This document shows, piece after piece, positions 3,281 through 29,176 of a stretch of 38,538 nucleotides of DNA. The notes below the pieces were generated by a model that was not told the origin of the DNA, ran no database searches, and saw only the letters and a program-made list of their open reading frames with translations. This DNA comes from Alphaproteobacteria bacterium (GTDB lineage: Bacteria; Pseudomonadota; Alphaproteobacteria; Rhizobiales; Xanthobacteraceae). The position numbers and the translations under genes were made by a program. How positions within the stretch are numbered: the first letter of the stretch is position 1; each line of letters starts with the position of its first letter. The stretch covers positions 1-38,538 of the forward strand of contig VAZM01000023.1 of the NCBI GenBank assembly GCA_005883135.1, read 5' to 3'.

Positions 3281-3305
3281 GCTTGTTGGCCCCGCTCGCC
3301 GTCTG

Positions 3306-3403
3306 CCCTCATCCTGAGGAGCGGCCCGAAGGGCCGCGTCTCGAAGGATGAGGGCGGCCTCATGCTTCGAGACGCCCGCTGCGCGGGCTCCTCAGCATGA
3401 GGC
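3306..3403. repeat. Family A palindromic repeats (CCTCATCCTGAGGAG...CTCGAAGGATGAGG and CATGCTTCGAGACGC...CTCCTCAGCATGAGG)
   Basis: Two adjacent inverted-repeat units; the same arms recur at about 3534, 3617, 5240, 5308, 6633, 8500, 8570, 8668, 14723, 14778, 14891, 15350, 15459 and 15562. Confidence 0.9.
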
Positions 3404-3413
3404 CGACTGCACC

Positions 3414-3500
3414 GTCATGCCCGGACTTGATCCGGGCATCCATCGGAAAAAGTCAGTTCATTTGAAGAGGATGGATTGCCGGGTCAAGCCCGGCAATGAC
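3414..3500. repeat. Family B repeat (GTCATGCCCGG...CCGGGCATCCAT...ATGGATTGCCGGGTCAAGCCCGGCAATGAC)
   Basis: Paired hairpins bounded by GTCAT/ATGAC; recurs at about 3729, 5394, 6800, 9474, 11331 (half), 12085, 13831, 28953 and 35186 (degenerate). Confidence 0.9.
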
Positions 3501-3533
3501 GGGGCTGAGGATAACGCGTAGCTGGTGCCTCCG

Positions 3534-3663
3534 CCCTCATCCTGAGGAGGGCGCGCAGCGCCCGTCTCGAAGGATGAGGCGGGCACCCTCAAGACGCTGT
3601 CTCGAAGGATGTGGCGGCCTCATGCTTCGAGACGGCGGCTTCGCCGCCTCCTCAGCATGAGGC
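3534..3663. repeat. Family A palindromic repeats (two units)
   Basis: ccctcatcctgaggagggcgcgcagcgcccgtctcgaaggatgagg and catgcttcgagacggcggcttcgccgcctcctcagcatgagg. Confidence 0.88.
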
Positions 3664-3728
3664 CGGGCGGGGCTGGATGTACGCGCAGGCTTTATCCTTT
3701 TGCATGCCCCTTACCCCACGCTCATTGC

Positions 3729-3812
3729 GTCATGGCCGGGCTTGTCCCGGCCATCCACGTCTTTGATCTTCTTAAAAAAGACGTGGATGCCCGCGCCAAG
3801 CGCGGGCATGAC
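3729..3812. repeat. Family B repeat
   Basis: gtcatggccgggcttgtcccggccatccacg...cgtggatgcccgcgccaagcgcgggcatgac. Confidence 0.88.
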
Positions 3813-3833
3813 GATGCTAGGGCGGGCGGCCCC

Positions 3834-5129
3834 TCACTTCTGCGGGCGCTTCGCCCCCGGCGTGAACTCGGCGCGGATTTTGGCGCTGTGCTCGCCGAGG
3901 GACGGCACGGCGCCGTAGCGGCGCGGCGCCGCGTCGGAGCGCGCGGGCGGGGCGGGATAGCTCACCGCACCCGAAGCTGTGCCGATGTCGATGCGGCGCA
4001 GCTGCGGGTGCACGGCGAGGTCGCCCGTATCATTGACGCGAGCGAAAGCGATGTCGTTTTCCGCCAGCTTTTGCGTCAGCGCCGCCTCATCGGTGGCGCC
4101 GAACACGGCAGCGACGCGTGCGTCGGTCTCGGCGCGGCGCGCAATGCGCGCGACGTTGGTAGCAAACGCGGGATCGGCGGCGAGCGCCGTGTCGCCCAGC
4201 ACCTTCTCCGCCAGCACGCGCCACTCGCGGTCGCTCTGGATCGAGATCAAAATGTCGGCGCCGTCCTTGGTCTTGAACGCGCCGTAGGGCGCAATCGAGA
4301 TGTGGGCGAGGCCGATGCGCTTGGGCGGCGCGCCGCCCTCGTATTGGATGAGCGGCACCGCCATCCACTCCGCCATGGCATCGAACATGGAAATCGAGAT
4401 CGCGGCGCCTTCCCCCGTGCGCTCGCGCGCGTAGAGCGCTTCGAGGATCGCCTCATAGGCGTTCATGCCGGCGGCGATGTCGCAGACCGAGACGCCGACG
4501 CGCGCCGGCGCCTCGGGCGAGCCGGTGACGGAAGCGAGCCCCGATTCCGCCTGCACCAGCATGTCGTAGGCCTTGCGCGCCGCGTAGGGGCCGTCCTCGC
4601 CGTAGCCGGAGATCGAGCAGATCACGAGGCGCGGGTGCGCGGCCCGCAGCGCGGCGAGCGGGAAGCCGAGCTTGGCGATCGCGCCGGGCTTGAGGTTCTG
4701 TACGAACACGTCGGCCTTGCCGAGCATCGCGGCGAGGAGCGCCTTGTCGTCCTCGCGGGCGAGATCGAGCACGAGGGATTCCTTGCCGCGGTTGAGCCAG
4801 ACGAAATACGCGCTCTGGCCTTCTGGCGCGATGCAAGCTGAATCTGATGCCGCGAGTTCGGTGTGTTTTCCCTCCACAAACTCGGTGTGTTCCCCTCCCC
4901 CACCCAAACCCCGGCGAGCCGAGGTTTGGGTGGGGGAGGGAGCAGACCGAGTGTGCTGCGCGGGAGCGCGCGGAACGGCGAGCTTGTCGTAGTAGCGCGC
5001 GAAGTCGCCCTCGGGCCGCTCGACCTTGATCACGCGCGCGCCGGCATCCGCCAGGCGGCAGGTGCACATGGGCGCCGCCACCGCCTGCTCCAGCGACACC
5101 ACCAGCAGGCCTGAAAGGGGAAGGGGCAT
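3834..5129 (-). CDS. CaiB/BaiF-type (family III) CoA transferase carrying an in-frame repeat-derived insert
   Basis: 'RVIKVERPEGDFARYYD', 'YFVWLNRGKESLVLDL', 'DVFVQNLKPGAIAKLGF', 'ICSISGYGEDGPYA...YDMLVQAESG'; residues about 55-104 are encoded by repeat DNA. Confidence 0.9.
   Translation of the reverse strand: MPLPLSGLLVVSLEQAVAAPMCTCRLADAGARVIKVERPEGDFARYYDKLAVPRAPAQHTRSAPSPTQTSARRGLGGGGEHTEFVEGKHTELAASDSACIAPEGQSAYFVWLNRGKESLVLDLAREDDKALLAAMLGKADVFVQNLKPGAIAKLGFPLAALRAAHPRLVICSISGYGEDGPYAARKAYDMLVQAESGLASVTGSPEAPARVGVSVCDIAAGMNAYEAILEALYARERTGEGAAISISMFDAMAEWMAVPLIQYEGGAPPKRIGLAHISIAPYGAFKTKDGADILISIQSDREWRVLAEKVLGDTALAADPAFATNVARIARRAETDARVAAVFGATDEAALTQKLAENDIAFARVNDTGDLAVHPQLRRIDIGTASGAVSYPAPPARSDAAPRRYGAVPSLGEHSAKIRAEFTPGAKRPQK
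4818..4967. repeat. Family C repeat inside the CaiB-type CDS
   Basis: actcggtgtgttcccctcccccacccaaacc...ggtttgggtgggggagggagcagaccgagt: inverted arms with ACTCGGT/ACCGAGT ends. Confidence 0.85.
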
Positions 5130-5183
5130 GGGATTGTTTGCGGGAAGTTCCAGTGACCGTCGGGCTTATAGCCAGCAGTGAGC

Positions 5184-5360
5184 AATAGGCGCGTTTACGC
5201 GCGCGTTCAACGCGCTATGGCGAAACGCGCACCACCGCCCTCATCCTGAGGAGCGGCCCGAAGGCCCGCGTCTCGAAGGATGTGGGCGGGACGTCGAACG
5301 ATGAGGGCGGCCTCATGCTTCGAGACGCCGCGCTGTCGCGCGGCTCCTCAGCATGAGGCC
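5184..5360. repeat. Family D copy (about 5184-5220) followed by two family A units
   Basis: caataggcgcgtttacgcgcgcgttcaacgcgctatgg, then ccctcatcctgaggagcgg... and catgcttcgagacgccgcgctgtcgcgcggctcctcagcatgagg. Confidence 0.8.
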
Positions 5361-5393
5361 GAGGAGAGCGCGTCGCGCCAAGCTGGGTCACTC

Positions 5394-5483
5394 GTCATGG
5401 CCGGGCTTGTCCCGGCCATCCACGTCTTTAAACCTCGGGCACAAAAGTAAGACGTGGATGCCCGGCACAAGGCCGGGCATGAC
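5394..5483. repeat. Family B repeat
   Basis: gtcatggccgggcttgtcccggccatccacg...cgtggatgcccggcacaaggccgggcatgac. Confidence 0.88.
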
Positions 5484-5579
5484 GGACGAGAGGTCGGGCA
5501 CGTAGCCACCGCTTCGCGCGCCTGCCGCGCGCTGCTATCTTTCCCTGCAATGATGCCACCGGCTTCGCCGTTATCGCGC

Positions 5580-6623
5580 ATGGCCCGCATTGCGATCATC
5601 GCGCTGATGCTGCTCGCGTCAGCGTCCGCGCTCGCGCAGCAAGGCGAGCCGAGCGCGCCGGCGCCGGCCGCGCCCGGCGGCACTACGACACCGCCTGCTG
5701 CTACCGACACGCCGCCGGCGGATGCGCCGCCCGCGGACACGCCGGAAGCGCCAGCCCCCGGAGCGCCATCCGCCGAGGCACCGGCTCCCGAACCATCCCC
5801 ACCGCCACCGCCCCGGCGCGTGGGCGACGCGGATCTGCGCGAATCCGTGTGCCTGATGATCGAATCGGCGGCGCGCGCGCACAACCTGCCGCTCGAGTTC
5901 TTCGCCCGCGTGATCTGGCAGGAGAGCCGCTTCCAGCCCAACGTCGTGGGCCCGCGCACGAGGAGCGGCGATCGCGCCCAGGGCATCGCCCAGTTCATGC
6001 CGCGCACCGCCGCCGAGCGCGGCCTGTTCGATCCGTTCGATCCGGTGCAGGCGCTGCCGAAATCGGCGGAATTTCTGCGCGAGCTTGCCGACCAGTTCGG
6101 CAATCTCGGCCTTGCCGCCGCCGCCTACAACGCCGGGCCGGGCCGCGTGCGCGAATTTTTGTCCGCGCGGCGCTCGCTGCCGGCGGAGACGCGTCACTAC
6201 GTGCTCGCCATCACCGGCATCTCGGTCGACGAGTGGGCGGCGAGTGGCAAGCGCGAGCCGGCGCCGGTGGCGAAGCCCGGCTGCAGCGAGCTGATGGCGC
6301 TTCTGCACCGCGCGCCCAACCCGTTCGTGCAGAAGCTCGAGCAGCGCGTGAACGTCGTCGCCGCGGCGCCGTGGGGCGTGCAGCTCGCCGCCGGCTTCTC
6401 GCGCGATCACGCGCTCTCGAACTACGCCATGCTCGCCAAGCGCTACGCCACCGTTCTCGAAGGACGCGACCCGAGCCTCTTAAGCACGCTGTTGCGCAGC
6501 CGCGGCACGCAGCCGTTCTACCAGGTGCGCGTCGGCGCCGACACGCGCGCGGCGGCGGAGACGCTGTGCGGCAGCATCCGCCGCGCCGGCGGCGCCTGCT
6601 TCGTGCTGCGCAACCGCGGGTAG
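5580..6623 (+). CDS. Lytic murein transglycosylase (SLT domain), secreted
   Basis: Signal peptide MARIAIIALMLLASASALAQ, Pro/Ala-rich linker, SLT motifs 'FFARVIWQESRFQPNVVGP...RAQGIAQFMPRTAAERG' and 'LAAAAYNAGPGRV'. The 5454 ORF start lies inside repeat DNA. Confidence 0.9.
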   Translation: MARIAIIALMLLASASALAQQGEPSAPAPAAPGGTTTPPAATDTPPADAPPADTPEAPAPGAPSAEAPAPEPSPPPPPRRVGDADLRESVCLMIESAARAHNLPLEFFARVIWQESRFQPNVVGPRTRSGDRAQGIAQFMPRTAAERGLFDPFDPVQALPKSAEFLRELADQFGNLGLAAAAYNAGPGRVREFLSARRSLPAETRHYVLAITGISVDEWAASGKREPAPVAKPGCSELMALLHRAPNPFVQKLEQRVNVVAAAPWGVQLAAGFSRDHALSNYAMLAKRYATVLEGRDPSLLSTLLRSRGTQPFYQVRVGADTRAAAETLCGSIRRAGGACFVLRNRG

Positions 6624-6632
6624 GGTTGCTGG

Positions 6633-6770
6633 CCGCCCTCATCCTGAGGAGGGCGCCTTAAGCGCGTTTACGCGCGTCTTCGACGCGCTATGGCGCCCGT
6701 CTCGAAGGATGGGGGCGGCCTCACGCTTCGAGACGCCGCACTTCGTGCGGCTCCTCAGCATGAGGCCGAG
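6633..6770. repeat. Family A repeats, the first carrying a nested family D element (about 6658-6692)
   Basis: ccctcatcctgaggagggcgcc[ttaagcgcgtttacgcgcgtcttcgacgcgctat]ggcgcccgtctcgaagg. Confidence 0.85.
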
Positions 6771-6799
6771 GAGGGGGCGCGGCGGGGGTAGCGGCAGTC

Positions 6800-6982
6800 G
6801 TCATGGCCGGGCATAGCGCGTCGGAAGACGCGCGTGAACGCGCCTTTGACCCGGCCATCCATCCTCTTTGAAAAAATTTTTGCGAAGAGCGATGGACCAA
6901 CCGAACTCGGGTTTACCCGAGTTCGGGCATTTTAAGGCGCAAGTCGGATAAATCCGACTTGCATGGTCAAGCCCGCGGGTGA
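6800..6982. repeat. Family B repeat carrying a nested family D element and a double-hairpin element (6901-6962)
   Basis: gccgggc[atagcgcgtcggaagacgcgcgtgaacgcgc]...; ccgaactcgggtttacccgagttcgg...gcaagtcggataaatccgacttgc. Confidence 0.85.
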
Positions 6983-7022
6983 CGCATCTGACTCGATTCG
7001 AGCGGCGAACTCAGTCTACTCA

Positions 7023-7196
7023 CTCTCCTCGCACTCGGTTTTTATTCTCCCCCCTTGTGGGGAGGGTCGCGCGCCGAAGCGCAGCGAAGGCGCGCGGGGT
7101 GGGGGTCGTGGTTGTTGCGCGAGACGTGTCCACCAACTCCGACCCCCACCCCTAACCCCTCCCCACAAGGGGGAGGGGAACCGACCGAGTGCGTCG
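7023..7196. repeat. Family C repeat pair (ACTCGGT...CCCCTTGTGGGGAGGG / CCCCACAAGGGGGAGGGG...ACCGAGT)
   Basis: Inverted pair of GC-rich hairpins bounded by actcggt and accgagt. Confidence 0.85.
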
Positions 7197-7209
7197 ATCG
7201 CGCGGTGGC

Positions 7210-8373
7210 TTAATCCCCCATGTTCCCGTGCTCGGAGACGGTGGCGGGGCTGCGCGCGAGCGCCAGCATGATCTGCCGGCCGATGCGGGTCGCCGGCTCG
7301 CCGCCGCAGTTGGAGAGGATGACGATGCCGAGCCGGCGCTGCGGGATCATGCCGATATAGGTCGCGGTGTTGTTGAGGCCGCCGTTCTTGTCGACGATGA
7401 GGAGGTCGTCGTTCTTCACCCGCTGCCAGGCGAGCGCCTGGGTGAAGCGCGGATTGACGGTGAACACGCCCTCCTGCGCCAGCGCCATTGCCGCCTGCAG
7501 CTCGCCCTTGTCGGCGAGCGTGCCGAGATTGGCGGCGAGGAAACGTGCCATGTCGCGGGACGAGGAATAGATCTGCCCGGTGCCCGGCCAGTTGAACGCG
7601 CCCTGCTCGTTGCCCGGCTCGCCCACAGGCTTGGCGTCGGCGTTGTAGCCCTGCACGGCGCGGCGGCGAAACTCGGGAGCGAGCTGCCCGCGCGCATTGC
7701 CGCGCGGCACCGGCAGCACGGTCGAGGTCATGTCGAGCGGGGCAAGGAGCCGCGTCTGCAGGAGCTGCGCATACGGCGTGCCGAAGCGGCGCTCCAGCGC
7801 CAGCGCGAGCAGCACGAAGCCCGAGTTGGAATAGATGTCCTGCTTGCCGGGCGTGTGCGCCTCGTCGGCTTTCCAGGCATTGAGATAGCGGATGAAGTCG
7901 GGGAGCGTGTAGGGCCCGCGGTGCGATGGCTCGGATTGGTGCGGCGTGCGCTCGAGCCCCGAGGTGTGGCTCGCGAGCTGGCCGAGCGTGACGCTGCGGA
8001 TGTCGCCGCCCTCCCTGAGCTCGGTGACATATTTCGCGACTCGATCGTCGAGCGCGACCTCGCCTTGTTTCACCGCTTGCGCCAGCAAAATCGCGGTGAA
8101 GGCCTTGCCGACGGAGGCGAGGTTGAACAGCGAGTCCGACGTGATGGGCGTTTTGCGCGCGACGTCGGCGAGGCCGTAGTTGAAGAGGAGCGTGCGGCCG
8201 TCGATGTTGAGCGCGACCGCCATGCCGCCGGCGGCGATCAGCATCGGCTGCACCTGCCGACGCACGATCTGCTCGATCTCGGCGTCAGTCTCGGCGCGCG
8301 CCGGGACGGCTGCGGAGAGTGTGACGGACGCGATCAGCGATCCCGCGATGACTAACGCCGCTATGCCCCGCAT
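7210..8373 (-). CDS. Secreted serine hydrolase, class C beta-lactamase/DD-peptidase fold
   Basis: Signal peptide; SVGK (SxxK) motif, YSN motif (DIYSNSGFVLLALALE), 'SLFNLASVGKAFTAILLAQ'. Confidence 0.88.
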   Translation of the reverse strand: MRGIAALVIAGSLIASVTLSAAVPARAETDAEIEQIVRRQVQPMLIAAGGMAVALNIDGRTLLFNYGLADVARKTPITSDSLFNLASVGKAFTAILLAQAVKQGEVALDDRVAKYVTELREGGDIRSVTLGQLASHTSGLERTPHQSEPSHRGPYTLPDFIRYLNAWKADEAHTPGKQDIYSNSGFVLLALALERRFGTPYAQLLQTRLLAPLDMTSTVLPVPRGNARGQLAPEFRRRAVQGYNADAKPVGEPGNEQGAFNWPGTGQIYSSSRDMARFLAANLGTLADKGELQAAMALAQEGVFTVNPRFTQALAWQRVKNDDLLIVDKNGGLNNTATYIGMIPQRRLGIVILSNCGGEPATRIGRQIMLALARSPATVSEHGNMGD

Positions 8374-8499
8374 CGCGGACCTCCCGTCGCCGCGGCGCTC
8401 GCGCGCGCCGCCCTCACTCGCGCCGCAATTCTACCGTGCCGCTTCGCCGCGCCGAGTTAATTCGCGTCCATATTCCGTCGCGTCCATGACGATTGGGGG

Positions 8500-8725
8500 G
8501 CCCTCATGCTGAGGAGCCCACCGAAGGTGGGCGTCTCGAAGCATGAGGCAGCGGGGGTTCTCGGCCCGCCCTCGTCCTGAGGAGCGAGCCATAAGCGCGT
8601 TTACGCGCGGCTTGCGACGCGCGATGGCGAGCGTCTCGAAGGGCGAGGGCGGGCACTCACTGTGAAGGCCGCCCCCATCCTTCGAGACGCGGCCCTTCGG
8701 GCCGCTCCTCAGGATGAGGGCGACC
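8500..8725. repeat. Cluster of three family A repeats, the middle one with a nested family D element (8591-8626)
   Basis: ctcgtcctgaggagcgagcc[ataagcgcgtttacgcgcggcttgcgacgcgcgat]ggcgagcgtctcgaagggcgagg. Confidence 0.88.
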
Positions 8726-8764
8726 GGAGAGGGGCCAAATCGAGAGCGTCGGGAGTTTGTAACC

Positions 8765-9403
8765 TCACTCCACCGGCCGCGCGATCGGGGCGTCGGCGAA
8801 GATCTGATACTGCTGCGCGCGCGGCTTGCCCGCGTCGGCGGGATCGACAAGTTGCAGCGAGCTTTTGCCAAGGAGCGCGCACGGCAGGATCATCACGCGG
8901 ATGAAGCGGCTCGGACGATCGGCGGCTTGCGCGAACACGGGCTCCGGCCCGCTCTCGTACCACGCGCCGCCGGGGCCGTATGAGGTCGAGCGGCCGGCGG
9001 TGTCGATGCGGATGCCGCCCTCGATCAGGCAGCGGATGCCGGGGCCTTGATGGCGATGCGGATAGGCGCAACCGCCGGGCGGAAACGCGACGCTGTCGCC
9101 GCGCAAGAGAAGCTCCCCCGCGGGTAAGGTATTGAGCGACGCGGTGAGCTTCTCGCGCGAGCGCACCCCCGCCGCGGCGGGCGTCGGCGTTGCTGCGAGC
9201 TCGTAGCGCCAGAACGTTGCGCCGCCATCGCCGCCGATGATGGTCACTGCGGCCTCGCCGTGCCAGGTCTCGCCATCGCGCAATGTATGCTCGCCGATGC
9301 GCGCTTGGCCGTGCACGAGAAAGATCATGCGCGCCGCGGCGGGCAGCGCGAGCGCCGCGCCGTTCGACACCACATCTTCGTAGAGCGCGAGCACGGGCGG
9401 CAT
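8765..9403 (-). CDS. Cupin-domain protein
   Basis: 'RMIFLVHGQARIGEHTLRDGETWHGEAAV', 'SVAFPPGGCAYPHRHQGPGIRCLIEGGIRI...PGGAWYESGPEPV'; start at MPPVLALYED. Confidence 0.75.
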   Translation of the reverse strand: MPPVLALYEDVVSNGAALALPAAARMIFLVHGQARIGEHTLRDGETWHGEAAVTIIGGDGGATFWRYELAATPTPAAAGVRSREKLTASLNTLPAGELLLRGDSVAFPPGGCAYPHRHQGPGIRCLIEGGIRIDTAGRSTSYGPGGAWYESGPEPVFAQAADRPSRFIRVMILPCALLGKSSLQLVDPADAGKPRAQQYQIFADAPIARPVE

Positions 9404-9473
9404 GGGCGAGTCCTTAGCTGTACGCTGGGCAACGGCGTGGCGGTTGCCCACGCGGGTGTTCTAAGTTTAGCTC

Positions 9474-9561
9474 GTCATTGCCGGGCTTGACCCGGCAATC
9501 CATCATCTTGGCAAAGAGTTTTTGCGAAGGGATGGATGCGCGGGTCAAGCCCGCGCATGAC
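9474..9561. repeat. Family B repeat
   Basis: gtcattgccgggcttgacccggcaatccat...ggatgcgcgggtcaagcccgcgcatgac. Confidence 0.88.
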
Positions 9562-9581
9562 GAAATAACTAAGTTCTCGCT

Positions 9582-11552
9582 ATGGCAAAAAAACCGGGCC
9601 GAGCCGTGACCGAGGCAGATTCCGCCGATCGCCGAGCCGCGCCAGCGCAGCGCGCGCCGTGGCTCAAGCTCGCCGCGCTCGTCCTGGTGATCGCGGCGCT
9701 CGGGCTCCCCGTCAACGATCTCTTCCGCTACGCGCTGCTCGTCATCGCCACGGTGGTCGTGGCCGCCGGCACGATGCGGGGCGCATGCGTCGGGACGCTC
9801 GCCCTCGCCCTTCGAGACGCTCGCCATAGCGCGTCGGAAGACGCGCGTAAACGCGCTTATGGCTCGCTCCTCAGGACGAGGGCGCGGCTCCTCAGCATGA
9901 CGGCAGGCACGCGGTGGGGCCTCGCGATCGCGGCGATTGCGCTGTGCATCGTGGGACAGATCCTCTTTCCGGCGCCGCGCATCGAGGAAGGCCACAACGT
10001 GTTCATCGTCGATCGCCCCGGCGGCGCGCTGGAGAGAGGCTTGCCGCGCGAGGCGTTCCGGATCATGGCGGCGGAGTTCGACGCGACCTATCCGCCGGCG
10101 CGGCGCTGCGCGCCGCAGGAGATCGGCTGCTGGCGCGGCCAAGGCTTTCCCGCCCAGGCCTTCGCCTTCTCCGCTGACGGCATGCTCGAGCATCCCGCTT
10201 CCTCGCGGCACGTTACGGGAATCAATTTCGGCGATCCGGTGTGGCTGCGCCTCGGCTTCATCAACGAGCTCGCCTACAACTGGAATTCGCAGGCGAGCGA
10301 CGTCGCCCGCGCGCAGCGCGACCGCCGCTCGCTTGCCTTCCTGCACCAGTGGCGGCTCACCATGCCGTGGTTCGTCATGTACCGCTTTCCCGCCGACTTC
10401 GTCGGCAGCGCGTTGTGCTGGCGCGGCGAGGTCATCTGGGAGGGCGCGGAGGAAAAATTCGAGCCGGTGACGCACGCATCGATGCAATGCCGCACGCTGA
10501 CGCCCGAGGATATCGGGCGGCGAATCTTCGGCGTCGCGATCGCGCACGAGCTGGCGATGCGGCTCGTGCCGACGTGGGAGGTGCGGCTGCGTCAGCTTCT
10601 CCCGCCAGCCCTCGCGCTCGTCGCGAGCGCGGGGGTGCTCGCGCTCCTCGTGCGCGTGCGGGGACGCCGCCTGGTGCTGCCGTTCGCGCTCATTGCGGCG
10701 ACGCTTCTCGTCGCGCTCCTCAACGACGCGAGCTTCATCGGCGGCGTGCGCCCGTTCGATAGCGGCGACGACGGGCTCGTCTACGACGGCTACGCGCGCA
10801 TCATGCTGCGCCAGCTCGTCGCCGGCGATATCGCCGGCGCGCTCGAAGGCGTCGAGCCCGTATTCTACTTCACGCCGGGCTTGCGCTACCTGCGCGCCGC
10901 CGAGCATGTCGTCTTCGGCGAGAGCTATCTCGGCTATCTCTCGCTCATTCTGCTCCTGCCGTTTCTCGTCTTCGCGCTGTTCCGCCGGTTCGTGCCGCTC
11001 GCCTGGGCGCTGGCGTTGACCGCGATCTTCGCCGCGATCCCCGTCGGCGTCGGGTTCGGCTCGAGCCTGGTGCAATACGTCAAGTGGGCCTCGCGCGGCT
11101 TCGCCGATCCCGCTGCCTACGTGCTCTTCCTCGCCGCCTTCGTGCTGTTGCTGCCGCGGACTCGGCTGCTCGGGCGACGCACTCGGTCTGCTCCCTCCCC
11201 CCTTGCGGGGGAGGGGTGGGGAGGGGGGTCGTGCGATGTTTCGCACGTGGCGCCATTGAGATTTCACTCCGCCACCCCCAACCCCTCCCCGCAAGGGGGA
11301 GGGGAGCATACCGAGTTCGCCGCGCGCGAAGACGTGGATGCCCGCGCCATAAGCGCGTTCACGCGCGTCTTCCGACGCGCTATGCGCGGGCATGACGAAG
11401 CGAGGGCCGATGGTTTTGCCCGCGCGCTCGCCGCCGGGCTCCTGTTCGCGCTGGCGCTGGCGGTGCGGCCGAACATTGCGCCGGCGGCGGGCATTCTGCT
11501 CGCTGGCGGCGGCATCATGGCGCTGGCGGCGCGCGAGTTTCGCCGCTGCTGA
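9582..11552 (+). CDS. Polytopic membrane protein (possibly glycosyltransferase/mannosyltransferase-like) with two in-frame repeat insertions; probably continues into 11555-12076
   Basis: Multiple TM segments; repeat DNA at about 9792-9902 and 11176-11400 is read through in frame. Confidence 0.7.
   Translation: MAKKPGRAVTEADSADRRAAPAQRAPWLKLAALVLVIAALGLPVNDLFRYALLVIATVVVAAGTMRGACVGTLALALRDARHSASEDARKRAYGSLLRTRARLLSMTAGTRWGLAIAAIALCIVGQILFPAPRIEEGHNVFIVDRPGGALERGLPREAFRIMAAEFDATYPPARRCAPQEIGCWRGQGFPAQAFAFSADGMLEHPASSRHVTGINFGDPVWLRLGFINELAYNWNSQASDVARAQRDRRSLAFLHQWRLTMPWFVMYRFPADFVGSALCWRGEVIWEGAEEKFEPVTHASMQCRTLTPEDIGRRIFGVAIAHELAMRLVPTWEVRLRQLLPPALALVASAGVLALLVRVRGRRLVLPFALIAATLLVALLNDASFIGGVRPFDSGDDGLVYDGYARIMLRQLVAGDIAGALEGVEPVFYFTPGLRYLRAAEHVVFGESYLGYLSLILLLPFLVFALFRRFVPLAWALALTAIFAAIPVGVGFGSSLVQYVKWASRGFADPAAYVLFLAAFVLLLPRTRLLGRRTRSAPSPLAGEGWGGGSCDVSHVAPLRFHSATPNPSPQGGGEHTEFAAREDVDARAISAFTRVFRRAMRGHDEARADGFARALAAGLLFALALAVRPNIAPAAGILLAGGGIMALAAREFRRC
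9792..9902. repeat. Family A repeat with nested family D element (9826-9860), inside the CDS
   Basis: cgctcgccctcgcccttcgagacgctcgcc[atagcgcgtcggaagacgcgcgtaaacgcgcttat]ggctcgctcctcaggacgagggcg. Confidence 0.88.
11176..11400. repeat. Family C repeat pair plus half family B repeat with nested family D element (11349-11383), inside the CDS
   Basis: actcggtctgctccctccccccttgcggggg...ccccgcaagggggaggggagcataccgagttcg, then gtggatgcccgcgcc[ataagcgcgttcacgcgcgtcttccgacgcgctat]gcgcgggcatgac. Confidence 0.9.
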
Positions 11553-11554
11553 CG

Positions 11555-12076
11555 ATGGCGCTGCACAACTGGATCTACGGCGGCGCGTTGGTGCTCTTCA
11601 CCACGACCGCCGGAATTCCCAAGCTCTTGGTGATGCCGCCCGCCGAGTATCTCGCCGCGCTCGCCGAGCTCGCGCACCTTGATGTCGCGGGGGAGCACGT
11701 CATGCGCGCGCTGCGGCAGATCGCGGGCTGGCTCGCCGGCCCGTCGGAATCGCTGGCGTTGACTCCGCTCAACGCCGCAGCCATCGTGGTACTGATTCGC
11801 GTCGTGCTGTGGCGGCAGGCCGAACCGTGGTTGCGGCTGACCGCGATCGCCACCCTCGTGCAGCACGGCGTCGCGCTCTTCTATGCGAGCGCCGGGCGCT
11901 ACTACTATCTGACCTGGCTGCTCACGCTGCTGGTGGTGTCGGCGTGGGTGCACGGCGAAGGGCTCGACATCGCGCGGCGGCGCTTTCCCCGTTTCGCGGA
12001 CCGCGTGGCGAAGCATCCCGCGGGCCTTGCGCTCGCGCGCGGACTGCGGCGCATGGGGGAGATGGTGGAGCGCTAG
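11555..12076 (+). CDS. C-terminal continuation of the membrane protein (or a separate ORF starting 2 nt after the previous stop)
   Basis: 'MALHNWIYGGALVLFTTTAGIPKLLVMPPAEYLAAL...YYYLTWLLTLLVVSAWVHGEG'. Confidence 0.6.
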   Translation: MALHNWIYGGALVLFTTTAGIPKLLVMPPAEYLAALAELAHLDVAGEHVMRALRQIAGWLAGPSESLALTPLNAAAIVVLIRVVLWRQAEPWLRLTAIATLVQHGVALFYASAGRYYYLTWLLTLLVVSAWVHGEGLDIARRRFPRFADRVAKHPAGLALARGLRRMGEMVER

Positions 12077-12084
12077 TAGGGCAC

Positions 12085-12207
12085 GTCATGCGCGGGCTTG
12101 ACCCGCGCATCCATCATCTGCGTAAGAAGCGTTTTCCCAAAATGATGGATTGCCGGGTCATAAGCGCGTTCACGCGCGTCTTCCGACGCGCTATGCCCGG
12201 CAATGAC
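12085..12207. repeat. Family B repeat with nested family D element (12160-12194)
   Basis: attgccgggtc[ataagcgcgttcacgcgcgtcttccgacgcgctat]gcccggcaatgac. Confidence 0.92.
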
Positions 12208-12252
12208 GAGCAGAATATAGGCGGCAGCAGCGTACGAGCACCCAAGCCGCCG

Positions 12253-12912
12253 CTACGGCTTGCGGCCGACCTCGATGGCGATGACGTTGGGCCGCTGCTC
12301 CATGCGCGGGCCGGCCGACGCGCTCACCCCGGCGATGATGCCTTCCGCCATCAGCGCGGCGGCGAGCGCTTGCGCGGGCGCGGCGAGCTCGTTCGCGCGG
12401 CTCGCGGCGACGAACACCGTCACGCCGGAATTCGGCGCGAGCGGGACGCCGGCGGGCGGCTCGCCGACGGCAAGCCCAACCTGCGGCACGCGCACCCATT
12501 GCGCGGCGGCAAGCGTCTTGTCGAGCACGGCCCACAAGGCCTGCGCATCCTCGGAGCCCGCGGCGACTTGTCCCTCGAATTGCTGCCCGGCGAAGGCTTT
12601 GACCCGCGCTGCGACGCGCTGCTGCGCATCGGGCGCGAGCGTGCGCGGCGTGGTCAGCCGCGTGAGCTCGAGCTCGGCGACGCTCGCGCGCTCGCGCGCT
12701 TCCGCGAGCAGCGCCGTCTCGCCGAAGCGGGCGAGCGCGAGGCCCGCGAGCAAGCTCGCGATGAAGAGGAACGCCAGCCCCTTCTGCAGGCCGCGCTTGG
12801 CGTCGGGAAAGAAAATCACGCCGGCCACGCCGATCACGCCGAGCGCCACCAGCGCGGACCCGCACCCGCGCCAGAATTCGGGGCTCGCCATTCCGAGGAG
12901 GAGATCGGTCAT
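12253..12912 (-). CDS. Hypothetical membrane protein with two predicted TM helices
   Basis: Open frame with start MTDLLLGMASPEFW; hydrophobic segments ALVALGVIGVAGVIFF and LAFLFIASLLAGLAL. Confidence 0.65.
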   Translation of the reverse strand: MTDLLLGMASPEFWRGCGSALVALGVIGVAGVIFFPDAKRGLQKGLAFLFIASLLAGLALARFGETALLAEARERASVAELELTRLTTPRTLAPDAQQRVAARVKAFAGQQFEGQVAAGSEDAQALWAVLDKTLAAAQWVRVPQVGLAVGEPPAGVPLAPNSGVTVFVAASRANELAAPAQALAAALMAEGIIAGVSASAGPRMEQRPNVIAIEVGRKP

Positions 12913-13004
12913 GCGCGTGTCGTTTCGCTGCCGGTGATTAGACAGTCAGACTACCGCACCGGCGCCGCTGTGTCGTCGCGGGGTGAATGTAGAATCATGC
13001 GGCG

Positions 13005-13156
13005 CACTTGGTGTGTTCCCCTCCCCCTTGTGGGGAGGGGTTAGGGGTGGGGGTCAATCTTTGGGGCGAGACTCGAGCATCACTGCACCACCCCCACCCC
13101 GCGCGCTGCGCGCGCGACCCTCCCCACAAGGGGGAGGGTAAAGACCGAGTTCGCCG
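13005..13156. repeat. Family C repeat pair
   Basis: acttggtgtgttcccctcccccttgtggggagggg...ccctccccacaagggggagggtaaagaccgagttcg. Confidence 0.87.
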
Positions 13157-13204
13157 CTTGCTATTGCTAAAGGTACAAAGAGCAGAGTGACACACCGCCG
13201 CGCG

Positions 13205-13804
13205 TTAGGTTCTCCGACGCTTGCGCATGCCGCGGGAGTTCCGCCGCCCACGCGGCGCCGTGCGTGGCAGGGCGAGAAAGCCGTTGAGCTCGGCAAGGAG
13301 CAGCGCGCCGATGTGGAGCTGCGAGACGAATACGCCGCGCTTGATCAAGCGCACGATCTCCGCCGGCGACACGAGCTTCACCGTGAGGCCCGGCTCCGGC
13401 GCAAAGCCGGCGGCGCGCTCGCCCGCCGCGACGAAGAAATTATGGATGCGGTTGTTGAGGCGGCCGGTGCAGGCAGAGTTCTCGCCCAAGGCATGGATCG
13501 CGCGCGCGGTGAAGCCGGTCTCCTCCAAGAGCTCGCGCCGGCAGCCTTCGGCCGGATCCTCGCCGGGATCGACCAGGCCCGCCGGCAGCTCCCAGGCGTA
13601 GGCCTCGAGCGCGGGGCGGTATTGCCGCACGATCGGGATTTTGCCAGCGCGGGTGAGCGCAACGATCGAGATGTAATCGGGCTGCTCCACCGCGTGATAG
13701 ATTTGCGGCGCCGCGCCGCGGGAGAATTCCACCTCGCGCGCGATGAGGCTCACCCACGGCGACACCGCCGTGGTGCGACGCGAGCGTATGCGCGGCCATT
13801 TCAT
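13205..13804 (-). CDS. Nudix hydrolase
   Basis: Nudix box GLVDPGEDPAEGCRRELLEETGF. Confidence 0.9.
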   Translation of the reverse strand: MKWPRIRSRRTTAVSPWVSLIAREVEFSRGAAPQIYHAVEQPDYISIVALTRAGKIPIVRQYRPALEAYAWELPAGLVDPGEDPAEGCRRELLEETGFTARAIHALGENSACTGRLNNRIHNFFVAAGERAAGFAPEPGLTVKLVSPAEIVRLIKRGVFVSQLHIGALLLAELNGFLALPRTAPRGRRNSRGMRKRRRT

Positions 13805-13830
13805 GGGATGGGTGCGGCCACTCGTGAGCC

Positions 13831-13917
13831 GTCATGCCCGGGCTTGACCCGGGCATCCATCCAAAGGAAGGACTTCAAGCAAAGACGATGGATTGCCGGG
13901 TCAAGCCCGGCAATGAC
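13831..13917. repeat. Family B repeat without a nested element
   Basis: gtcatgcccgggcttgacccgggcatccatcc...gatggattgccgggtcaagcccggcaatgac. Confidence 0.9.
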
Positions 13918-13949
13918 GGTGGATGGGTTACTGCCAACGGCCGTCATTC

Positions 13950-14699
13950 TCATCCCCCCGGCTCCTTCAGCGCCACGCTGCGCGGCGGGCGGCGCAGGAA
14001 GGTGGTGGCGAAGGCGTAGCGATACCAGCGCAGATACGCGGGAAGCCAGCGCAGAACCTGAAACCGCGATCTGCCGTCGGCCCGCTCGATCCACGTCACC
14101 GGCACCTCGGCGATCCTCCAGCGCAGCCGATGTGCCTTCACCAGGAACTCGATGCTGTAGCAGAAACCCTCGCGCGACTCGATCGGGATGCGCTCGATCG
14201 TCCGCCGAGAGAACAGGCGAAAGCCATTGCTCGCGTCCGTCGTCGGCAGCCGCGCGAGGTGGCGCAAGGTGAAGTTGGCGCTGCGCACCAGAGCTGCCTT
14301 GAGCCACGGGCAGCCGACCATGGCGCCGCCCGGCATGAAGCGGCTGGCGCAGACGATGTCGCAGCCTCCCCGCGCCAGCGCCACCATGCGGTCGAGCATG
14401 GGCGCGTTGACGTGGTCGTCGGCGGGAAACATCAGCACGAACGGCGCGCTGCTTCTGGCGAAGCCGGTCATCACCGCAGCGTGCGCCCCGCGGCTCGCAT
14501 TGCGCACGAGCTCGACGGGAAGGCCGGCATAGGCCTGCGGCGCGGCGCGGATCGCCGGCAGCGTGTCGTCGTGCTCGTCGTCGTAGCAGATGAGCACGCG
14601 CGCCGGCGTCGCCACCGCGCGGCTGAGTCCCGCCAGCACCGGCACGATGTTGCGGCCCTCGTTGTAAACCGGAATGACGATGTCGAGCTCGGGAGTCAT
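13950..14699 (-). CDS. Family 2 glycosyltransferase (dolichol-phosphate-mannose-synthase-like)
   Basis: 'LDIVIPVYNEGRNIVPVLAGL', 'FVLMFPADDHVN', 'RDASNGFRLFSRR'-type motif (TTDASNGFRLFSRRTIERI). Confidence 0.88.
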   Translation of the reverse strand: MTPELDIVIPVYNEGRNIVPVLAGLSRAVATPARVLICYDDEHDDTLPAIRAAPQAYAGLPVELVRNASRGAHAAVMTGFARSSAPFVLMFPADDHVNAPMLDRMVALARGGCDIVCASRFMPGGAMVGCPWLKAALVRSANFTLRHLARLPTTDASNGFRLFSRRTIERIPIESREGFCYSIEFLVKAHRLRWRIAEVPVTWIERADGRSRFQVLRWLPAYLRWYRYAFATTFLRRPPRSVALKEPGG

Positions 14700-14722
14700 G
14701 CTGTCAGCGAATCGCTCTGTCG

Positions 14723-14936
14723 CCCTCATCCTGAGGAGCGGCCCGAAGGGCCGCGTCTCGAAGGATGAGGGGCGGCGGCCTCATGCTTCGAGACGCCCGC
14801 TTCGCGGGCTCCTCAGCATGAGGCCGAGGAGAGATCGGCGTCAAAGCTGTTTGTCCCTCGAGGGTATTCGCTGAGATGTTCATCGCGTGACTATGCTTCG
14901 AGACGCCGCACTTTGTGCGGCTCCTCAGCATGAGGC
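14723..14936. repeat. Family A repeats (three units) interleaved with a duplicated gene tail
   Basis: Units at about 14723-14770, 14778-14823 and 14891-14936. Confidence 0.85.
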
Positions 14937-15308
14937 CGAGGAGAGATCGGCGTCAAAAGCTATTTGTCCGTTGACCGGTACTTCGCTGAGATATTCATCG
15001 TGTCGCTTTTGCAAGTGGCCGCCGTCGCGTCGAAAGCCGAGCAAGCGAGTCGAAATCACCGCGAATGAGCGCTTCCTTTTTTTTGCACGCGACCAGCCCT
15101 TCACTTGCCGCTCGGCGGCAATGGCGTCGGTAATCCGGTCAAACCATTGCGAGAATACCAGCGTCACCGGGCGACGTTGCGCCGTATAGCCGCCGTACGT
15201 TCCAGCATTGTGTTCCGCAACCCGTTGCTCCAGGCCCGACCGTGCGGTCCCGGTGTAATAGCTGTCGTCGGCGCAGCGCAAGATATAGAGGTAGGCGCCA
15301 TCACTCAT
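14925..15308 (-). CDS. GIY-YIG domain endonuclease-like protein; C-terminus runs into repeat DNA
   Basis: 'AYLYILRCADDSYYTGTARSGLEQRVAEHNAGTYGGYTAQRRPVTLVFSQWF...ERQVKGWSRAKK'. Confidence 0.88.
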   Translation of the reverse strand: MSDGAYLYILRCADDSYYTGTARSGLEQRVAEHNAGTYGGYTAQRRPVTLVFSQWFDRITDAIAAERQVKGWSRAKKRKRSFAVISTRLLGFRRDGGHLQKRHDEYLSEVPVNGQIAFDADLSSASC

Positions 15309-15349
15309 GGTGCGCCTTAAGCTTAGCTGAGTAGCCTCCGCGCTCTCCG

Positions 15350-15615
15350 CCGCCCTCGTCCTGAGGAGCGAGCCCGGCCGAGCGAAGCGAAAGCCGGGTG
15401 AGCGTCTCGAAGGGCGAGGGCGGCACCTGCACCTGACCATGATGCCGCGTAATCGGGCCGGCCTCATGCTTCGAGACGCACAACTTCGTACGGCTCCTCA
15501 GCATGAGGCCGAAGAGAAAGCGCCGTCGAAGCCAGGGGTCGGTCATATTGGCAGATCGCGGCGGCCTCATGCTTCGAGACGCCGCGCTGTCGCGCGGCTC
15601 CTCAGCATGAGGCCG
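15350..15615. repeat. Family A repeats (three units), the first with a different short insert at its loop
   Basis: ctcgtcctgaggagcgagc[ccggccgagcgaagcgaaagccgggt]gagcgtctcgaagggcgagg; then units at about 15459 and 15562. Confidence 0.82.
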
Positions 15616-15628
15616 TGTCCTCCGCATC

Positions 15629-16363
15629 TCACCCCTTTGCGCCAACGGTGAGGACGAAGGGCCGCAGCCGCTCCATCACGCCGAAGCCGAAGGCAGCGCG
15701 GTCGATGACATTGTAGATCGGCAGCAAAAGTTGTGCGCGCCGCGACGCCACGTAGCGATAGGCGAGACCGGAAAGATAATGCGAGGAGACGGCAAAGCCC
15801 GCGCGCGCGAACACGGCGCGGACCTCGCGCGCGAGCACTGGCCGCTCGTTCTCGGTCACGCCGAGCGGGCTGTAGAACGGCGAGGCGCGGTCGCGGTAGA
15901 GCCACATGAACGGATTCATCCGGTTGGGATCGAAGGCGAGAAAGCGCCCGCGCGGGCGCAGCACGCGGAAGGTTTCCGCGGCGCAGGGCGAGGGGTCGGG
16001 GAAGTGGTGCACCACGCCGCTCAAGAGCGCGCCGTCGAAGCTCTCGGAGGCAAACGGCAGGTGCTCGATGTCGCCGGCGATGAACGCGATCGATGGATGC
16101 TTGCGGCGGCCGACCGCGAGCAGCTTCGCGCTGATGTCGACGCCGACGCAGTCGTAGCCGGCGCGCGCAAGCAGCGCGGTGAAGGTGCCGGAGCCGCAGC
16201 CGAGATCGACGACGCGCGCGGGAGGCTTAAGCCCGGTGAGCGTGATGAAGGCGTCGACGATGCGCGCGCTCGCCTGCGGCGTGAACACGTCATAGTCGTC
16301 CGCGGCGGCATGGCCGTCGAAGAACGCGATCTCTTTCTGTTTGTCTTGGGTGGACGCGGTCAT
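15629..16363 (-). CDS. Class I SAM-dependent methyltransferase
   Basis: 'RVVDLGCGSGTFTALLARAGYDCVGVDIS', 'FDGALLSGVVHHFPDP'. Confidence 0.88.
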   Translation of the reverse strand: MTASTQDKQKEIAFFDGHAAADDYDVFTPQASARIVDAFITLTGLKPPARVVDLGCGSGTFTALLARAGYDCVGVDISAKLLAVGRRKHPSIAFIAGDIEHLPFASESFDGALLSGVVHHFPDPSPCAAETFRVLRPRGRFLAFDPNRMNPFMWLYRDRASPFYSPLGVTENERPVLAREVRAVFARAGFAVSSHYLSGLAYRYVASRRAQLLLPIYNVIDRAAFGFGVMERLRPFVLTVGAKG

Positions 16364-28952: not shown

Positions 28953-29176
28953 GTCATGCCCGGCAACGCAGTCAAGCTTGCGCAGACTGCGTAAACTTGT
29001 CTGGCGCTGCCGGGTATCCACGTCTTCCTCGTTGAGGCAACAAAGTCGTGGATGGCATCGGAACCTGGGCTTGCCCGAGTTCCGCGTCATAAAGTGCCGC
29101 AAGTCGGGTAAACCCGACTTGCGGGGACACAAGCGCGTTCACGCGCGTCTTCCGACGCGCTATGCCCGGCCATGAC
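28953..29176. repeat. Family B repeat with a nested double-hairpin element (29060-29122) and family D element (29129-29163)
   Basis: ggaacctgggcttgcccgagttcc...gcaagtcgggtaaacccgacttgc, then aagcgcgttcacgcgcgtcttccgacgcgctat gcccggccatgac. Confidence 0.87.

Follow-up and report, generated by a model that had tools for sequence, protein, structure and literature searches.

Two in-frame palindromic repeat inserts and a downstream frameshifting deletion in a polytopic membrane-protein gene of an alphaproteobacterium

Inserts in the membrane-protein gene

A gene for a polytopic membrane protein in a member of the Xanthobacteraceae contains two in-frame inserts made of palindromic repeats, and a 31-nt deletion downstream of the second insert shifts its reading frame. 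The inserts probably entered loops of the protein first and the deletion came later; we consider this copy of the gene most likely to be a recent pseudogene. The gene was found in a stretch of 38,538 nt, called the window here (positions 1 to 38,538 of contig VAZM01000023.1, assembly GCA_005883135.1). The source genome is a draft MAG of 5.88 Mb, with 670 contigs and a completeness of 84.8%. The tetranucleotide composition of the whole window correlated with that of the MAG at 0.988, which makes mis-binning from a distant organism unlikely.

Orthologues were drawn from the same genus, the same family and public genomes. A total of 44 loci was fetched, some of them being the same contig obtained twice, so that about three dozen were distinct, and 40 were measurable for spacing. 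Alignment with orthologue L007 and the other orthologues identified an insert at 11147-11407 on the plus strand, with a net length of 231 nt (77 codons) and exact edges that are ambiguous by about 20 nt. The motifs RGFADPA and RPN were separated by 34-39 residues in the 40 measured orthologue loci and by 116 residues in the window, corresponding to 77 additional codons. This segment was absent from all orthologues, including the two other genus members that carry the gene, G002 (L007) and G006 (L008), and the insertion appears to be specific to the window's lineage as far as sampled. The initial annotation, made from the letters of the DNA, had placed a repeat-derived segment at 11176-11400; the segment is indeed present, is open in the frame that had been assigned to it, and encodes the peptide that had been read from it.

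The proposed make-up of the second insert, a family C pair followed by a family B repeat holding a family D element, was also confirmed, with family B being a single CGTC-tagged REP. The family C pair (11163-11334) consists of C-rich palindromes in inverted orientation, with 66-nt arms (11163-11228 and 11269-11334; 77%) located 40 nt apart. More family C copies were found in the window at 7030-7202, 13000-13055 and elsewhere. The family B REP, GGATGCCCGCG...CGCGGGCATGACG, occupies 11329-11398 on the plus strand, and its stem recurs in other genome copies bearing family D. The loop of this REP contains the family D hairpin (11349-11384, plus strand), which encodes the peptide AISAFTRVFRRAM. Family D had 36 copies in the genome at no more than 3 mismatches, compared to 0 for a reversed control pattern. 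The RNA fold of the second insert reached -154 kcal/mol (z = -8.2), and 0 of 200 shuffled sequences folded as well. Given this fold and the copy number of family D against the control, the structure of the second insert is far beyond chance.

The length of 231 nt is a multiple of three, and no stop codon occurs in the host phase. In the predicted structure of the intact orthologue L008 (pLDDT 82, pTM 0.87), the second insert maps to a loop of 10 residues that joins helices 454-469 and 480-496, in agreement with the earlier placement between two TM-like segments. When the window protein was modelled, the insert itself (about residues 528-604) was unstructured, with pLDDT mostly below 50.

The first insert is located at 9786-9905 on the plus strand and was recognized as a 40-column gap in every orthologue that extends this far. 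It comprises about 40 codons (120 nt, a multiple of three), is open in the host phase, and consists of a family A hairpin whose loop contains family D (9797-9884), together with a second, partial family A element. We considered a start codon downstream of this insert (ATG at 9896), which would make the insert extragenic, and rejected it, since the orthologues extend upstream with two conserved helices. The A+D composite occurs in two copies, one inside the gene (9797-9884, first insert) and one upstream of it (8567-8654). These copies are inverted relative to each other, 95% identical and 1.1 kb apart.

Deletion downstream of the second insert

Codon-level and nucleotide alignment with L007 revealed a 31-nt deletion at 11540/11541 on the plus strand, about 140 nt downstream of the second insert. 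It shifts the frame, and the ORF then stops at 11552. The spacing between the motifs RPN and LHNW was 37 aa in 40 of 40 measured orthologue loci. The orphaned C-terminal part of 173 residues lies in another frame at 11555-12076 on the plus strand, begins with an ATG 2 nt past the stop, and is 72% identical to residues 448-620 of the L007 ORF. The same C-terminal match was obtained for 17 other locus entries, some of which represent one contig fetched twice. Every orthologue examined was one uninterrupted ORF, and the 47 other places in the family search had long open frames with no stop within the match. Beyond the end of the window ORF, the orthologues run on for about 140-190 residues, roughly one quarter of the protein. 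In the L008 model, the deletion maps approximately to helix 521-531, and by a rough count the truncated product would lack some seven predicted helices at its C-terminal end.

The initial annotation had read the protein as ending with the stop at 11552, while about a quarter of it lies beyond, in another frame. Its view that a single protein absorbed at least four repeat modules in frame stands in part: A+D and then C, C and B+D were taken up, and both inserts are multiples of three, free of stops and situated in loops. The survival of the protein is not supported, and the reading frame is kept only locally, as the deletion breaks a frame that is continuous in the orthologues. A frameshift inside the repeat had been named as a point that would speak against the earlier reading; the frameshift is present, but just outside the repeat.

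Order of events

We propose that composite repeats (A+D, then the C pair plus a CGTC-REP with D) inserted twice, in frame, into inter-helix loops, where they would have been neutral. While the gene was functional, selection probably purged carriers in which the frame was broken. The downstream deletion would have occurred later, shifting the frame, truncating the protein and presumably abolishing its function. In the N-terminal part, 20 of the codon changes on the window branch were synonymous and 4 were non-synonymous. The dN/dS to L007 was 0.25 for the N-terminal part, which is a purifying pattern, and 0.33 for the C-terminal part; these low values mostly reflect the time before the break and do not date the deletion.

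The opposite order would be that the gene was dead first and that the repeats landed later in neutral sequence, remaining in frame by chance. The surroundings of the gene are rich in repeats, and a dead gene would have been an easy target for them. However, each insert is open in just one of three phases in either orientation, and the chance that both length and phase fit is about 1/9 per insert and about 1/81 for both in the absence of selection, a post hoc figure, as the gene had been picked for staying open. In addition, no other frame lesion was found in the rest of the gene in the orthologue alignments. We regard this order as improbable.

Since the contig comes from a draft MAG, the 31-nt deletion could also be an assembly or sequencing error. 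The gene would then be intact, and its full-length product, about 840 aa long, would contain two disordered loops. The many contigs of the MAG, the open and in-frame state of both inserts, the location of the insert in a loop and the low dN/dS in both halves would all fit such an error. However, a clean loss of 31 nt is atypical of short-read error, the site is not located in a long repeat or homopolymer, and its flanks are collinear with L007. An artefact is thus rather unlikely in our estimate, though of the alternatives weighed here it is the one to be taken most seriously.

Even with a real frameshift, the gene might still function through two polypeptides whose translation is coupled. The stop codon TGA and the next ATG are only 2 nt apart (TGACGATG), so that the ORF at 11555-12076 opens at once, and both halves have a dN/dS of the order given above. 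Against this, about ten residues are lost with the deletion where a helix is predicted, the number of split orthologues was 0, and low pairwise dN/dS is expected after a recent break. Coupled polypeptides are therefore very improbable, and a young pseudogene that took up its inserts before the deletion remains our preferred reading.

Host gene

The ORF at 9582-11552 on the plus strand is the N-terminal part of the gene, open up to the premature TGA, and its body is mostly 45-82% identical to the orthologues. The top fold matches of an intact orthologue were GT-C glycosyltransferases, namely Emb arabinosyltransferases, AftB and ArnT. Foldseek probabilities were high for some of them (1.00 for ArnT 5f15 and 0.99 for AftB 9dlh), while the E-values were only 0.03-0.1 and the TM-scores about 0.3-0.4. 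The fold search with the model of the window protein alone gave no match, and no solved structure with a sequence match to the host protein was found. Neither the window protein nor one orthologue matched a Pfam or NCBIfam family. When 13 orthologues were scanned, three single matches were obtained, all at chance level. The protein thus resembles GT-C glycosyltransferases in predicted fold but differs from them in its weak E-values and in having no consistent Pfam or NCBIfam match; we describe it as GT-C-like, with no closer class, and take the fold matches as a lead and not as a classification. An Rfam scan returned a tRNA only.

The distribution of the gene is patchy. It was present in 2 of 7 other genus members and in 45 of 300 family genomes, the source genome included. 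Its frequent absence in the genus (5 of 7) indicates that loss is tolerated. An antisense ORF of 659 aa at 9414-11393 on the minus strand was rejected as coding, because conservation and codon pattern are on the plus strand. Antisense openness is common at 67% GC, and we judged this ORF to be a high-GC artefact.

Comparison with known repeats

CGTC-REPs have a CGTC tag, an AT-first 9-bp stem and a CCA-type tail, occur mostly in alphaproteobacteria and are not known to have a dedicated transposase (Di Nocera, De Gregorio and Rocco 2013, PMC3733652). The family B element shares the tag, stem and tail, in an alphaproteobacterial host. It carries an unpaired tag at one end (CGTC, TGTC or CCTC in such elements), ...GGGCATGACG on the plus strand (CGTCATGCCC on the other strand), and has an AT-first stem of 9 bp (ATGCCCGCG/CGCGGGCAT), within the 8-9 bp of such elements, with TGG before the stem on the plus strand (CCA on the other strand). 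Unlike CGTC-REPs, whose loops are 4-5 nt long, its loop is filled by the family D hairpin of about 36 nt, and it is accompanied by the C pair in a gene that is broken downstream; those family B copies of the window that lack D have short loops. We therefore describe the element at 11329-11398 as CGTC-REP-like with an insert, rather than as a canonical CGTC-REP. No match to the Y1_Tnp transposase (PF01797) was found in the MAG, which is 85% complete.

That palindromic repeats can be taken up in frame within a loop is already known. According to PMC3733652, REPs occur inside ORFs in several species, among them in-frame ones of the CGTC class in alphaproteobacteria, grouped repeats encode 43-82 residues, and intragenic REPs are argued to be potentially neutral in linkers or loops. 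The same source counts the Rickettsia elements RPE-4 and RPE-6 among the CGTC-REPs and mentions that proteins decorated with RPE-1 were reported to be expressed. Like RPE-1, RPE-4 and RPE-6, the repeats of the two inserts are palindromic and in frame in an unrelated protein gene, with an empty site in the orthologues and a stop-free length that is a multiple of three. The likeness is in the kind of insertion. The host ORF is otherwise intact in the usual reported cases, whereas here it is frameshifted at 11540/11541, and any present-day translation of the inserts is hypothetical.

REPs nested in larger palindromes have been described for A. variabilis GTAG-15, H. neapolitanus CGTC-1 and T. roseum GTAG-23, and unusual loops are mentioned for Bradyrhizobium CGTC-1 (PMC3733652). 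The arrangement in the window is likewise a regular palindrome within a palindrome. In contrast to these cases, in which the REP lies inside, here the CGTC-REP encloses family D, which also occurs in the loops of family A hairpins and of a third kind of hairpin.

Families D and A in the genome

Six of the 36 family D copies in the genome lie in the window (6812-6845, 8593-8626, 9825-9858, 11351-11384, 12162-12195 and 29131-29164). Family D was found almost exclusively in apical loops of other hairpins, with differing host stems (including loci L020-L049 and L096-L115). Among 48 distinct copies from the genome and the genus, with host families assigned by sequence motif, 38 were in CGTC-REP-like elements with various stems, 6 had family A sequence around them, and 4 had others, including a GGGTCCCC/GGGGAC hairpin. 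A 9-bp host stem stood directly at the D junction in 34 of the 48 copies, while at least 8 bp was reached in 0.7% of shuffled flanks. Family D might be a small, mobile hairpin able to insert, or to be swapped, into apical loops of palindromic repeats with any stem, travelling nested and reaching genes inside its host repeat. We put this forward tentatively, as an idea that we doubt more than we favour. Such nesting may in part be known already, judging from the nested REPs and Bradyrhizobium loops in PMC3733652.

Fourteen of the 22 genome copies matching the family A pattern (TTCGAGACG...CTCCTCAGSATGAGG) are in this contig, which is 0.66% of the genome. Within the window, family A clusters at 3300-15640, a region also rich in families C and D. 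A sample of about 156 kb from other parts of the genome yielded no strict-form copy of family A or C. The concentration of family A may reflect either a local repeat hot spot or a contig from a close relative.

Discussion

A reader of a single genome can mistake a truncated ORF of this kind for a protein with absorbed inserts, as only the orthologues reveal that a quarter of the protein is missing. The case adds a double in-frame uptake of REPs, proven by orthologues, in a free-living alphaproteobacterium. Most worth keeping are the near restriction of family D to the loops of other hairpins and the concentration of family A in this contig. The nested hairpins, in which A and B carry D in their loops, could offer a way to study how CGTC-REPs, for which no transposase is known, move or swap parts.
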